From the NCBI RefSeq assembly GCF_014126825.1, contig NZ_CP059900.1, positions 2,618,954-2,682,953 of the forward strand: a DNA stretch of 64,000 bases. Direction: 5' to 3'. The notes under the pieces were generated by a model that saw nothing but the letters and a program-made list of their open reading frames with translations, had not been told where the DNA came from and made no database searches. Each line of letters begins with the position of its first letter. The stretch's first letter is position 1. Origin of the DNA: Tomitella gaofuii. Lineage in GTDB: Bacteria > Actinomycetota > Actinomycetes > Mycobacteriales > Mycobacteriaceae. Below, one piece after another: positions 59,661 to 64,000 of the stretch. The position numbers were made by a program, and so were the translations under genes.

Positions 59661-60812
59661 CTACGCGTGCACGCCGGGAGCGACCGGCATCCCGCCCGCG
59701 ACGATGAGGGCGGGCGCGCGGAGCACGCCGGGGTCGTCGCGCGGGTCGGCGGGATAGACCACGAGGTCGGCCCGCGCATCATCGCGGTCCAGCCCGTAGA
59801 GCCCCGCATGCGACTCGTCCGCACCGGTGAGCCACCTGCGCCCGCGCCACGACGCCGCGGCCACCGCGGCCGCGTCGCCGAGACCGGCCGCGGCCAACGC
59901 CTCGACCTCGTCGACGATGCGGCCGTGGTCGATCATCCCGCCGGCATCCGTCCCCGCATACACCGGGATGCCCGCATCGAGCACCGAACGCATGGTTTCG
60001 CCCAGCCGCCCGTGCAGCGCCCGCATGTGCGCGGCGTAGACGGGGTACTTGCCGGCGCCGTCGGCGATGTCCGGGAAGTTGGCGATGTTGATCAGCGTGG
60101 GGACCAGCGCGGTGCCCTGGCGCCGCATCATGTCGATGGTCTCGGCGGTCAGCCCCGTGCCGTGCTCGATGCAGTCGATCCCCGCGCGCAGCAGGCCCGG
60201 CAATGCGTCCTCGCCGAACACGTGCGCGGTGACCCGCGCGCCGGCCGCGTGCGCCCGGGCGATGGCCCGGGCGAGGATGTCGTCGTCCCAGAGCGGGGCC
60301 AGGTCGCCGACGGAGCGGTCGATCCAGTCGCCCACGAGCTTCACCCACCCGTCGCCGGCCCGCGCCTGCTCCTCGACCGCGTCCGGCAGTTGCGCCGGAT
60401 CGTCGAGGGCCAGCCCGAGCTCGCGCAGGTAGCGCTTGGGCCGTGCCAGGTGCTGCCCGGCGCGGATGATCCGCGGCAGCCCGGGGACCGCGTCGAGGCC
60501 CCGGGTGTCGACGGGAGCGCCGCAGTCGCGGACCAGCAGGACTCCGCGGTCGCGTTCGAGGCGTGCCTGCGCGAGGCATTCGTCGGGGCCGACGCCGCGG
60601 CTGCCGCGCCCGACGCCGACGTGGCAGTGCGCGTCCACCAGTCCGGGGAGCAGCCAGCCGCCGTCGCCGAGGTCGCGCGCCCCGGCGACCGGCGCGGTGG
60701 TGAGCCGCCCGTGGTGCAGATACCACTCGACGCGCTCACCGCCGGGGAGCGCGGTGCCCCTGATCCGCCACGGCCCTTCGTCGCCGAGGCCCGGCGCGCC
60801 GGGCCCGGTCAC
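59661..60812 (-). CDS. Amidohydrolase-superfamily protein (imidazolonepropionase/prolidase-like)
   Basis: 383 residues, metal-dependent TIM-barrel hydrolase. LLPGLVDAHCHVGVG supplies the first HxH pair; WVKLVGDWID the bridging Lys (about 157); VTAHVFGED and CIEHGTGL two further His; YAGTDAGG the Asp. The site therefore looks complete and binuclear. Related to Rv2915c, next to ffh. The substrate is not known. GTG 60810-60812 overlaps the ffh stop as GTGA. Confidence 0.88.
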   Translation of the reverse strand: MTGPGAPGLGDEGPWRIRGTALPGGERVEWYLHHGRLTTAPVAGARDLGDGGWLLPGLVDAHCHVGVGRGSRGVGPDECLAQARLERDRGVLLVRDCGAPVDTRGLDAVPGLPRIIRAGQHLARPKRYLRELGLALDDPAQLPDAVEEQARAGDGWVKLVGDWIDRSVGDLAPLWDDDILARAIARAHAAGARVTAHVFGEDALPGLLRAGIDCIEHGTGLTAETIDMMRRQGTALVPTLINIANFPDIADGAGKYPVYAAHMRALHGRLGETMRSVLDAGIPVYAGTDAGGMIDHGRIVDEVEALAAAGLGDAAAVAAASWRGRRWLTGADESHAGLYGLDRDDARADLVVYPADPRDDPGVLRAPALIVAGGMPVAPGVHA

Positions 60813-62410
60813 TTCGCCTTCCCGTCCTTCCCGGGCAGATCCAGCTGCGACAGGTCGATGCCCTCAAGCCCCGGGGGCAGCTTGTCGAGGCCCTTCGGCA
60901 TCGACGACAGGTCCGGCATCCCGCCGGGCATCCCACCCGGCATGCCCGGGAATCCGCCCGGCATGCCGCCGGGGAAGCCGCCCTTGACCTTGGGCGGCGT
61001 GGGACCGCGCCCGCCCTTCTTGCCCTTCTTGCCCTTCTTGCCCCGCTTGCCCTTGCCCTTGCCGTGGCCGCCCGGGCCGCCCATGCGGCCGGCCATGGCC
61101 GACATCATCTTGCGCGCCTCGAAGAACCTCTCGACGAGCTGGTTGACCTCGGTGACCGTCACCCCGGACCCGTTGGCGATGCGCAGCCGGCGCGAGCCGT
61201 TGATGATCTTCGGGTTGTCGCGCTCGGCCGGGGTCATGCCGCGGATGATCGCCTGAACCCGGTCGAGCTGCTTCTCGTCGACCTGGCCCAGCGCCTCCTT
61301 CATGTCGCCGGCGCCGGGGAGCATGCCGACGAGGTTGGCGAGCGGACCCATCTTGCGGATGGCCATCATCTGCTCGAGGAAGTCCTCCAGCGTGAGCTCG
61401 CCGCTGCCGATCTTCTGGGCCGTGGCCTCCGCCTGCTGCGCGTCGAAGACCTGCTCGGCCTGCTCGATGAGGCTGAGCAGGTCGCCCATGCCCAGGATGC
61501 GGCTCGACATGCGATCCGGGTGGAACACGTCGAAGTCGCCGAGCTTCTCGCCGGTGGAGGCGAACATGATCGGGCGGCCGGTCACCTGCCGGACGCTCAG
61601 CGCGGCGCCGCCGCGCGCGTCGCCGTCGAGCTTGGTGAGGACCACGCCCGTGAACCCGACGCCCTCGCGGAAGGCGTCCGCGGTGCTCACCGCGTCCTGG
61701 CCCACCATCGCGTCAAGCACGAACAGGACCTCGTCCGGCTGCACGGCGTCGCGGATGTCCGCGGCCTGCTTCATCAAAACCTCGTCGACGCCCAGCCGTC
61801 CGGCGGTGTCGACGATGACGACGTCGTGGACCTTGGTGCGGGCCTCCTCGACACCCGCGCGCGCCACCGCGACCGGGTCGCCGACACCGGCCCCCTGCGC
61901 CTCGCCCTCGCTGCTCGCGCCGGGATGCGGCGCGTACACGGGCACCCCGGCCTGCTCGCCGACCACCTTCAACTGCGTGACGGCGTTGGGCCGTTGCAGG
62001 TCGCAGGCGACGAGCATCGGCGTGTGCCCCTGCTCGCGCAGCCACACCGCCAGCTTTCCGGCCAGCGTGGTCTTGCCCGCGCCCTGCAGGCCCGCGAGCA
62101 TGATCACCGTGGGCGGCGTCTTCGCGAGGTTCAGCCGCCGGGTCTCGCCGCCGAGGATGCCGATGAGCTCCTCGTTGACGATCTTGACCACTTGCTGCGC
62201 CGGATTGAGCGCACCGGAGACCTCCGCCCCTTTGGCGCGTTCCTTGATGTTCTTGATGAACTCACGGACCACGGGGAGTGCGACGTCGGCCTCGAGCAGG
62301 GCCAGGCGGATCTCGCGGCAGGTGGCGTCGATATCGGCGGGCGACAGCTTGCCCTTGCCGCGCAGGTCCTTGAGCGACGAGGTGAGTCTGTCGGAGAGGG
62401 ATTCGAACAC
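60809..62410 (-). CDS. ffh: Signal recognition particle protein Ffh
   Basis: GTPase targeting nascent membrane proteins with 4.5S RNA. 533 residues: N domain (VFESLSDRLTSSLKDLRGKG), G domain with GLQGAGKTTLAGKLA, DTAGRLGVDE and TKLDGDARGG, and the methionine-rich M domain (FLEQMMAIRKMGPLANLVGM). The tail has KGKRGKKGKKGKKGG and Gly-Met-Pro repeats (GGMPGGFPGMPGGMPGGM). GTG 62408-62410 with GGAG upstream. In M. tuberculosis glnD lies next upstream; here it does not. Confidence 0.97.
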   Translation of the reverse strand: MFESLSDRLTSSLKDLRGKGKLSPADIDATCREIRLALLEADVALPVVREFIKNIKERAKGAEVSGALNPAQQVVKIVNEELIGILGGETRRLNLAKTPPTVIMLAGLQGAGKTTLAGKLAVWLREQGHTPMLVACDLQRPNAVTQLKVVGEQAGVPVYAPHPGASSEGEAQGAGVGDPVAVARAGVEEARTKVHDVVIVDTAGRLGVDEVLMKQAADIRDAVQPDEVLFVLDAMVGQDAVSTADAFREGVGFTGVVLTKLDGDARGGAALSVRQVTGRPIMFASTGEKLGDFDVFHPDRMSSRILGMGDLLSLIEQAEQVFDAQQAEATAQKIGSGELTLEDFLEQMMAIRKMGPLANLVGMLPGAGDMKEALGQVDEKQLDRVQAIIRGMTPAERDNPKIINGSRRLRIANGSGVTVTEVNQLVERFFEARKMMSAMAGRMGGPGGHGKGKGKRGKKGKKGKKGGRGPTPPKVKGGFPGGMPGGFPGMPGGMPGGMPDLSSMPKGLDKLPPGLEGIDLSQLDLPGKDGKAK

Positions 62411-62445: not shown

Positions 62446-62479
62446 TCGGGGTGCCGCACGCAGGACTGCGGCACCCCGA
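62446..62479 (-). terminator. Hairpin between glnB and ffh
   Basis: Arms 62446-62458 and 62467-62479 (tcggggtgccgca and its complement) form a perfect 13-bp stem with an 8-base loop, ending the amtB-glnB transcript and followed by ffh. Confidence 0.85.
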
Positions 62480-62547
62480 CAGCCTAGCGAGTGCGCCGCC
62501 ACCGCCGCGCGGGCGCACCGCGCGGGCCCGGAAGTACACCCCCCAGC

Positions 62548-62596
62548 GGAATCACACGGCCGGGCGGGATCACACGGCCGGGCGGGATCACACCGC
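62548..62596. repeat. ~18-bp tandem repeat at the 3' end of glnB
   Basis: ggatcacacggccgggcg is perfect at 62567-62584. It is preceded by a copy with one extra A (62548-62566) and followed by a partial copy (62585-62593) that contains the glnB stop codon. It looks like slippage duplication of the gene's last bases into the spacer. Confidence 0.85.
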
Positions 62597-62941
62597 GTCC
62601 GCGCCCAGCTCCCCGGTGCGCACCCGCACCACCTGCTCGACCCGGGTCACCCACACCTTGCCGTCGCCGACCCGGCCGACGTCGCCGTCACCGGACCGGG
62701 CCGCCGCGACGAGCGCGGCGACCACCGCGTCGACGGCGGTATCGGCGACGACCACCTCCACCTTGGCCTTCGTGTGCATGTCCACCGCGAACTCGCTGCC
62801 GCGGTAGAGCTCGGTGTGCCCCTTCTGCCGGCCGCGGCCCCGCACTTCGGTCACCGTCATCCCGTGCACCCCCGCGGCACTCAGCGCCGCCTCGACCTCA
62901 TCGAGCGCCACGGGGCGGATGATTGCGGTCACGAGCTTCAC
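62588..62941 (-). CDS. glnB: PII nitrogen-regulatory protein with Phe51
   Basis: PII sensor of 2-oxoglutarate and ATP/ADP, controlling AmtB and nitrogen metabolism. 117 residues (usual 112). Core KLVTAIIRPVALDEVEAAL, TVTEVRGRGRQKGHTELYRG and the C-terminal RVRTGELGADAV. In the T-loop Tyr46 is kept, but the modification site 51 is Phe (RGSEFAVD), so uridylylation or adenylylation there is impossible. The B-loop carries about five extra residues (SGDGDVGRVGDGK). GTG 62939-62941 with AAGGAG upstream. Paired with amtB; glnD absent nearby. Confidence 0.96.
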   Translation of the reverse strand: MKLVTAIIRPVALDEVEAALSAAGVHGMTVTEVRGRGRQKGHTELYRGSEFAVDMHTKAKVEVVVADTAVDAVVAALVAAARSGDGDVGRVGDGKVWVTRVEQVVRVRTGELGADAV

Positions 62942-63042
62942 GTGGACTCCTTCGTCGTGGCCCCAGGTCAGGGGTTCCGGAGGCGCCGAGGATACCGTCG
63001 CGACGACCGCCGCCCGACGCAGCGGCACCGCCGGCGAGTGCC

Positions 63043-64000
63043 TCACGACGGCCCGCGCCCGCCACCGGTCACCGCATACTCACGATCCTGCCCCGCTGCG
63101 GCCGGATCGGCACCCCGGACGCCGGACTCCGCGGCGGAATGGTCGATTCCGGCGTGCCCGGGGCTTGGCACCTGCCGGCCGGCGGTGCGGCCCCAGTCGT
63201 AGGCGGACTCGGCGTGCTGGCTCAGATCGATCCCGGCGATCTCGTCCTCCGGGTCCACCCGCAGCCCTATGCATGCCCGCACCGCCAGGGCGATCACCGT
63301 CGTCACGACGGCGGCGTAGACCATCACCGCCGCGGCTCCCACGGCCTGCCGCCACAACTGGTCGGCCCCGCCGCCGTAGAACAACCCGTCCACGCCGGTG
63401 GGCGCGGCGGACGTGGCGAACAGCCCCACCAACAGCGTCCCGATGAGCCCGCCGACCAGGTGCACACCGACCACGTCGAGCGAATCGTCGTAGCCGAGGC
63501 GGAACTTGACCCCTACCGCCAGGGCGCAGGCCGCACCCGAGACCACGCCGATCACCAACGCCCCCACCACGTCGACCGACGCGCACGCGGGGGTGATGCC
63601 CACCAGGCCCGCGACGACCCCGGAGGCCGCGCCCAGCGTGGTGTGGTGGCCGTCCCGGATGCGCTCGACCACCAGCCAGGCGAGCATGCCGGCGCACGCC
63701 GCCACGATCGTCATCACCAGCACCGACGCCGCCGCGCCGTCGGCCGCCAGCGCGGACCCGGAGTTGAACCCGATCCACCCGAACCACAGCAGCGCCACGC
63801 CGATCATCACCAGCGTCAGGTTGTGCGGCCGCGACGGGTGGGTACGCCACCCCCGGCGCACGCCCAGCACCGTCGCGAGCACCAGCGCCGCCACGCCGGC
63901 GTTGATGTGCACCGCGGTGCCGCCGGCGAAGTCGATGGCGTGCAGGTCCGAGATGATCCAGCCGCCCTCCCCTGACACGAGCCCGTCCGCGGCGAACACC
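63043..64000 (-). CDS. amtB: Ammonium transporter AmtB, 5' end outside window
   Basis: C-terminal ~319 residues. The twin-His pore residues are in AVHINAGVAALV and VGVHLVGGLIGTLLVG; WFGWIGFNSGSAL and the GVKFRLGYDDSLDVVGVH region are family marks. About eight hydrophobic segments remain. The cytosolic C-terminus continues DPEDEIAGIDLSQHAESAYD, the PII-responsive part, and is extended by ~45 residues. Gene order amtB-glnB is standard, with 101 bases between. It enters from beyond base 64000. Confidence 0.95.
   Translation of the reverse strand, partial: VFAADGLVSGEGGWIISDLHAIDFAGGTAVHINAGVAALVLATVLGVRRGWRTHPSRPHNLTLVMIGVALLWFGWIGFNSGSALAADGAAASVLVMTIVAACAGMLAWLVVERIRDGHHTTLGAASGVVAGLVGITPACASVDVVGALVIGVVSGAACALAVGVKFRLGYDDSLDVVGVHLVGGLIGTLLVGLFATSAAPTGVDGLFYGGGADQLWRQAVGAAAVMVYAAVVTTVIALAVRACIGLRVDPEDEIAGIDLSQHAESAYDWGRTAGRQVPSPGHAGIDHSAAESGVRGADPAAAGQDREYAVTGGGRGPS

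Follow-up and report, generated by a model that had tools for sequence, protein, structure and literature searches.

A PII protein without a GlnD partner in Tomitella gaofuii and its genus, probably an effector-only sensor

Three traits go with a PII protein that is modified by GlnD, namely Tyr51, a glnD gene in the genome or next to glnK, and Phe11, and none of them is found for the PII of Tomitella gaofuii described here. The gene lies in a stretch of 64,000 nucleotides (the window; G000:C1:2618954-2682953), part of a genome (G000) that is one contig of 4.35 Mb and 99% complete. A preliminary description of this DNA had noted the missing tyrosine and the missing gene and had proposed a PII that senses effectors only, with no covalent switch.

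Judged from its sequence, the window's protein is a member of the PII (P-II) family: the domain spans it entirely (PF00543, 99.8 bits against a cut-off of 25), and a whole-genome search found this single PII gene, with no second GlnB/GlnK carrying Tyr51. The span first proposed for the gene (62588..63043) is correct at its lower end; at the upper end it follows an open reading frame of 152 aa that takes in an in-frame stretch upstream of the gene (Table 1). The best PDB match is 3lf0/3bzq (E 3.8e-37), and the three PDB alignments shown have a gap of 5 at the B-loop. We take 3lf0/3bzq and 6yc6/6yc7 to be actinobacterial GlnK/PII structures (C. glutamicum GlnK; M. tuberculosis PII). The B-loop reads SGDGDVGRVGDGK against TGKIGDGK, a difference of 5 extra residues whose placement is ambiguous by one residue; the preliminary estimate of about five was accurate, and by alignment the insert is common to all five members of the genus, Tyr51 and Phe51 species alike. 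In the predicted monomer structure of the window's PII (mean pLDDT 83), the T-loop (residues 42-52) and the B-loop (87-91) fall below 50 and the insert is not placed by the model.

Table 1. Features of the PII locus, with positions in the window
Feature	Position	Strand	Details
glnB/glnK, PII signal protein	62588..62941	-	117 aa, GTG start at 62941; PF00543 E 1.2e-28 and NCBIfam P-II matches
Codon 51 of PII	62789..62791	-	TTC = Phe, replacing Tyr; read from sequence
Codon 49 of PII	62795..62797	-	AGC = Ser
B-loop insert of PII, 5 residues (about DGDVG), ahead of the GDGK motif	62675..62689	-	Alignment
amt, ammonium transporter	63043..64000, continues beyond window end	-	tblastn synteny; PF00909 at G000:C1:2682152-2683378
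ffh, signal recognition particle protein	60809..62410, start taken as GTG 62410	-	tblastn synteny, conserved start region; named from own sequence
Hairpin in the glnB-ffh gap	62446..62479	-	Stem of about 14 pairs, shuffle z -2.9; without T-run
Tandem repeat that overlaps the stop codon of glnB (unit 18 bp, 2.8 copies)	62546..62596	.	Sequence

The nucleotide pocket is largely intact: T29, G37, Q39, K58, G87, G89, K90, R101 and R103 are all there, and these nine residues, together with Arg47, are retained across the genus. Residue 9 is Arg (not Lys) and residue 83 is Ser (not Thr), in the window's PII and in its genus. Of the nine, Q39, K58 and K90 are residues that we take to contact the ATP phosphate or the nucleotide. 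For the rest the assigned roles come from PMC7919409 (cited, like the other papers marked "in part", from the accessible portion of its text), in which G87, G89, R101, R103 and T29 make ATP phosphate or nucleotide contacts in GlnK. Residue 11 is Val in all five members of the genus, to be compared with a Phe that is invariant in 138 primary PIIs from genomes with GlnD.

The reading of residue 51 as Phe in the preliminary description was right, as was its statement that Tyr46 is kept, which extends to all five members of the genus. Across the genus, codon 51 is TTC in G000, G002 and G003 and TAC in G001 and G004; the T-loop is GHTELYRGSEF in the former and GHTE(V/I)YRGAEY in the latter, such that Ser49 accompanies Phe51 in three species and Ala49 accompanies Tyr51 in two.

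GlnD itself was sought through the whole genome. The UTase_glnD model found no GlnD in G000 and gave only three partial matches (26.9-27.7 bits), so that a GlnD encoded elsewhere could be rejected: they are GlnE (NF010707, 1201 bits), CCA tRNA nucleotidyltransferase (TIGR02692, 812 bits) and RelA/SpoT (TIGR00691, 702 bits). Because three actinobacterial GlnD proteins run as positive controls score 333, 338 and 654 bits, this search would have detected a GlnD, and the earlier claim that glnD is missing holds for the entire one-contig genome. The four other genus genomes gave no GlnD match above the cut-off and one PII each.

At the locus, ffh directly follows glnB at the place held by glnD in relatives. 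The order amt-glnB-glnD-ffh, which the preliminary description had given for M. tuberculosis, was seen by tblastn in the relative that we examined, Corynebacterium meridianum (L018), and the claim that glnD is gone from this place is borne out in the genus: four members have amt-glnB-ffh and the fifth, G004 (L095), has glnB-ffh without amt at the locus. Amt was not found anywhere in the G004 genome (81% complete). Searches for a glnD remnant beside glnB, with five GlnD proteins against the five genus loci and five other loci from genomes without GlnD, gave no tblastn match at E<=1e-3, and the best match of a permissive search had E 0.02. Four relatives outside the genus that are also without GlnD (G100, G394, G059 and G073) likewise have no glnD at its place, and a 1.7 kb gap in G317, considered as the possible site of a glnD relic, holds a 517-aa ORF, the best GlnD match in that locus being E 3.7. 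The gene upstream in the genus, which matches the ffh query at 32-43%, is presumably ftsY. The terminator described after glnB was not substantiated: there is a strong hairpin, yet it has no T-run and no terminator-like match was found around it. Its stem is identical in G000, G002 and G003 and was not seen in G001 or G004, and it may belong to the leader of ffh or be a terminator lacking the T-run; Rfam returned nothing at gathering scores between 57000 and 64000.

One correction to the preliminary description is that within the genus the two losses do not coincide, since glnD is absent from five of five genomes and Tyr51 from three of five. The PII tree unites the Phe51 species on one branch with an SH-aLRT support of 98. 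As GlnD is missing from all five and Tyr51 only from this single branch, glnD was probably lost first, with Tyr51 changing to Phe later, an order that parsimony favors and does not prove. The PII reading frame is full length in all five members, and between G000 and G003 PII has dN 0.071 and dS 0.597 (ratio 0.12; 0.16 for the part of amt in the window), rates that indicate purifying selection on PII among the Phe51 species.

To place the genus, we considered 401 genomes of the family, of which 357, in 29 of 31 genera, have GlnD (NF002895, E<=1e-30). The genera without it are that of the window (5/5) and one small-genome genus (2/2, no PII found). PII is present in 21 of the 44 genomes without GlnD (the five of the genus and 16 of 39 others), and 23 have neither gene. 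For 24 of these 44, absence was defined as the complement of the GlnD match list, and a second model found no GlnD in them; that the absence might be an artefact of the model was rejected, as the highest score that this second, actinobacterial GlnD model reaches in any of the 44 is 38.4 bits, its cut-off being 799. Of 201 Corynebacterium genomes, 142 gave a PII match and 105 a GlnD match (NF001265, E<=1e-20), from which set difference gives 38 with a PII match and no GlnD and 58 without both.

We read 191 PII loci, 143 from 137 genomes with GlnD and 48 matches from 48 genomes without it. Four of the latter matches were dropped (G458, G499 and G479 truncated, G515 divergent), and seven weak PII-like second matches in GlnD-containing genomes (22.2-62.9 bits) and 14 of 87 newly listed GlnD-containing Corynebacterium loci were left out. 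The G455 row, cut by a contig end, is in the residue 51 and locus counts and is excluded from the tree, the residue counts and the comparison of invariant columns; G542 was counted as having GlnD although its match comes in two pieces. Tyr51 is present in 139 of the 143 loci from genomes with GlnD, the remaining four being second copies beside a Tyr51 copy, and every one of the 137 genomes keeps a Tyr51 PII. The 44 intact PIIs from genomes without GlnD have Tyr in 32 cases, Phe in 10, Val in one and Ile in one (12/44 changed), such that in the family, too, loss of the enzyme often leaves Tyr51 in place. The 5-residue B-loop insert is limited to the five genus members among the 191 loci; longer B-loops elsewhere occur in G525 (canonical, two residues) and G515 (divergent, three), both genomes without GlnD.

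Several unusual PIIs were seen in Corynebacterium. The four second copies (L183, L184, L185 and L244) have Phe51 and the T-loop GNKEIYRGAQF, and from sequence each is possibly an unmodifiable paralogue beside a modifiable PII. In one clade of 15 PIIs from genomes without GlnD (L107-L109, L111-L113, L207 and L210-L217) the T-loop, with GHTE lost, takes the form (V/I)E(Y/F)YRGxx(Y/F)(S/T)S; so altered, it may serve a different target. The G515 protein (L219), also from a genome without GlnD, is a divergent PII-like protein with a shortened T-loop.

The contrast at residue 51 (12/44 against 0/137 genomes) has a Fisher's p of 1.2e-8, a value inflated by relatedness. On the PII tree, a gene tree of 93 columns with many open forks and no species tree behind it, there are 7 changes at residue 51 and 15 in GlnD, and several of the 15 would be gains of the gene, a hint that some rows are misplaced. 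Six of the seven residue 51 changes lead to genomes without GlnD, and the seventh leads to the second-copy paralogue found in GlnD-containing genomes; with the share of tree length as the expectation, p is 0.075 with the paralogue (6/7) and 0.019 without it (6/6), and an independent-pairs sign test, with 5 pairs only, has a median p of 1. PIIs from genomes without GlnD also have longer root-to-tip distances (median 1.07 vs 0.55), and a general loosening of constraint may account for some of what is seen. A link between glnD loss and residue 51 change is thus plausible and repeated in these comparisons, though statistically weak once relatedness is counted.

With the four second-copy Phe51 paralogues set aside, 31 columns (30 residues and one B-loop gap column) are invariant in the 138 primary PIIs from genomes with GlnD, and 15 of them are also invariant in all 44 PIIs from genomes without it: A6, L20, T29, G35, G37, Q39, G48, K58, G87, D88, G89, K90, W92, R101 and R103. 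Grouping the latter PIIs by hand from the tree into 16 lineages, we find that, of the columns invariant with GlnD, F11, H42 and Y51 vary in six lineages each, K9 in five and F55 in four, and that, of the near-invariant ones, A49 varies in seven, T12 in five and K85 in ten. The division between kept and varying residues is not a clean one: among effector contacts, K9 varies in 12 and G41 in 14 of the 44 proteins, and position 38 is occupied by Arg, Gln, Met or Asn; in cyanobacterial PII, residue 9 contacts both 2-oxoglutarate and the target (PMC6243067, in part). Arg47, by which AmtB is plugged (PMC6243067, in part), is retained in 43 of 44. Adenylylated Tyr51 of C. glutamicum GlnK stacks on Phe11 of the neighbouring chain (PMC7919409, in part), and both partners of this contact are therefore freed in genomes without GlnD and never in the primary PIIs read from genomes with it.

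We propose, with a probability of about 0.77, that the PII of this genus is a non-covalent, effector-only sensor left after the loss of GlnD, most likely gating Amt; that it is unmodified in the cell and that Amt is its target are what we infer. Without GlnD, adenylylation of the single PII at residue 51 would have ended, and ATP, ADP and 2-oxoglutarate would set the conformation of a T-loop that most likely opens or plugs the adjoining Amt channel via Arg47; the input lost would be glutamine, which GlnD senses. Loss of glnD would have come first and lifted the constraint on Tyr51, allowing Phe51 to be fixed in one branch. The original proposal thus survives, most effector residues being intact and neither a GlnD nor a second PII being found. 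The amt-glnB pairing persists in four of five genus genomes; since G004 is without amt, Amt may not be the sole target. E. coli GlnK Tyr51Ala still associates with AmtB following an ammonium shock, as 2-oxoglutarate drops, and later dissociates (PMC4274968, in part), which means that the Amt role can be filled without the tag, and by analogy the genus PII would handle Amt likewise in nature. On the other hand, as far as AmtR control goes, the C. glutamicum Y51F variant behaves as if glnK were deleted (PMC7919409, in part), and loss of Tyr51 is therefore not neutral everywhere. A further idea, which we regard as tentative and on balance unlikely, is that the B-loop insert, which all five species carry where the ATP/ADP phosphates bind, adjusts how nucleotides and 2-oxoglutarate are sensed, with effectors alone supplying the information once given by GlnD, and that, more widely, repeated glnD loss in one family exposes the surface held by the covalent switch (Phe11, His42, Ala49, Tyr51 and Phe55).

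Could the protein instead be a relic, drifting to loss after glnD went, with Phe51 a mark of decay rather than a feature of a working sensor? The Corynebacterium genomes that have a PII match alone (38/201) or neither gene (58/201), the truncation of 3 of 48 PII matches in genomes without GlnD and the faster evolution of such PIIs all fit a path of this kind. We nevertheless think it an unlikely account of this genus, given the dN/dS of 0.12 between Phe51 species, the full-length frame in all five members and the nine pocket residues that are unchanged in 44 of 44 PIIs from genomes without GlnD. An error of assembly or sequencing is scarcely credible, as the identical codon 51 in three genomes, one of them a single contig, argues against TTC being a misread TAC or TAT.

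The remaining alternatives keep a covalent switch and move it. Ser49, which appears with Phe51 in three species where Tyr51 is accompanied by Ala49 in the other two, is the residue phosphorylated in Synechococcus elongatus PII (PMC6243067, PMC4285133; both in part), and by analogy the one switch might have been exchanged for the other. This seems improbable because Ser49 and Phe51 occur together in one lineage only, other Phe51 lineages having Ala49 or Thr49, and because G311, a relative with GlnD, has Ser49 together with Tyr51. Even less probable, in our view, is that another nucleotidyltransferase, GlnE for example, modifies the T-loop elsewhere, for instance at Tyr46: GlnE is encoded in G000 and Tyr46 is kept in the five species, but in an M. 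tuberculosis glnD deletion GlnK was not modified by GlnE (PMC3612183, in part), and Tyr46, kept in 142/142 PIIs with GlnD and 43/44 without, tracks no switch.

The effector-only PII proposed here resembles actinobacterial GlnK (C. glutamicum GlnK, M. tuberculosis PII) in its family, its place after amt and its nine pocket residues, and differs from the GlnK of the amt-glnK-glnD operon in lacking glnD, in having Phe51 and Val11 where that protein has Tyr51 and Phe11, and in its 5-residue B-loop insert. PIIs without modification are already known elsewhere. In sensing effectors only it would be like PIIs without known modification in plants and many other organisms (PMC4285133, in part), among which GlnK-Amt pairing also occurs (PMC4274968, in part), although here the state looks derived, being nested in a family in which most genomes have GlnD. 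As in E. coli GlnK Tyr51Ala, which still answers effectors (PMC4274968, in part), residue 51 is unmodifiable; unlike in that variant, the change is natural and common to three species, and the enzyme is also gone. With S. elongatus PII the protein shares Ser at 49, known here from sequence, and differs from it in Phe51. In the literature within reach (titles and abstract openings, with most subscription journals outside it), we found no account of glnD loss together with Tyr51 loss in actinobacteria. A review describes glnD as ubiquitous in actinobacteria (PMC4285133, in part), which is not borne out by the 44 of 401 family genomes without it.

Results on what the covalent PII tag does in actinobacteria differ between species: an M. 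tuberculosis glnD deletion grows without a major defect under nitrogen limitation, and in S. coelicolor the deletion gave no such defect (PMC3612183, in part), whereas C. glutamicum Y51F acts like a glnK knock-out (PMC7919409, in part). The genomes that have lost glnD, the 21 that keep PII among them, are a natural experiment that may separate the residues held by effectors and Amt from those held by GlnD, and a PII that most likely works without the tag helps to reveal which of its functions depended on it and which did not.
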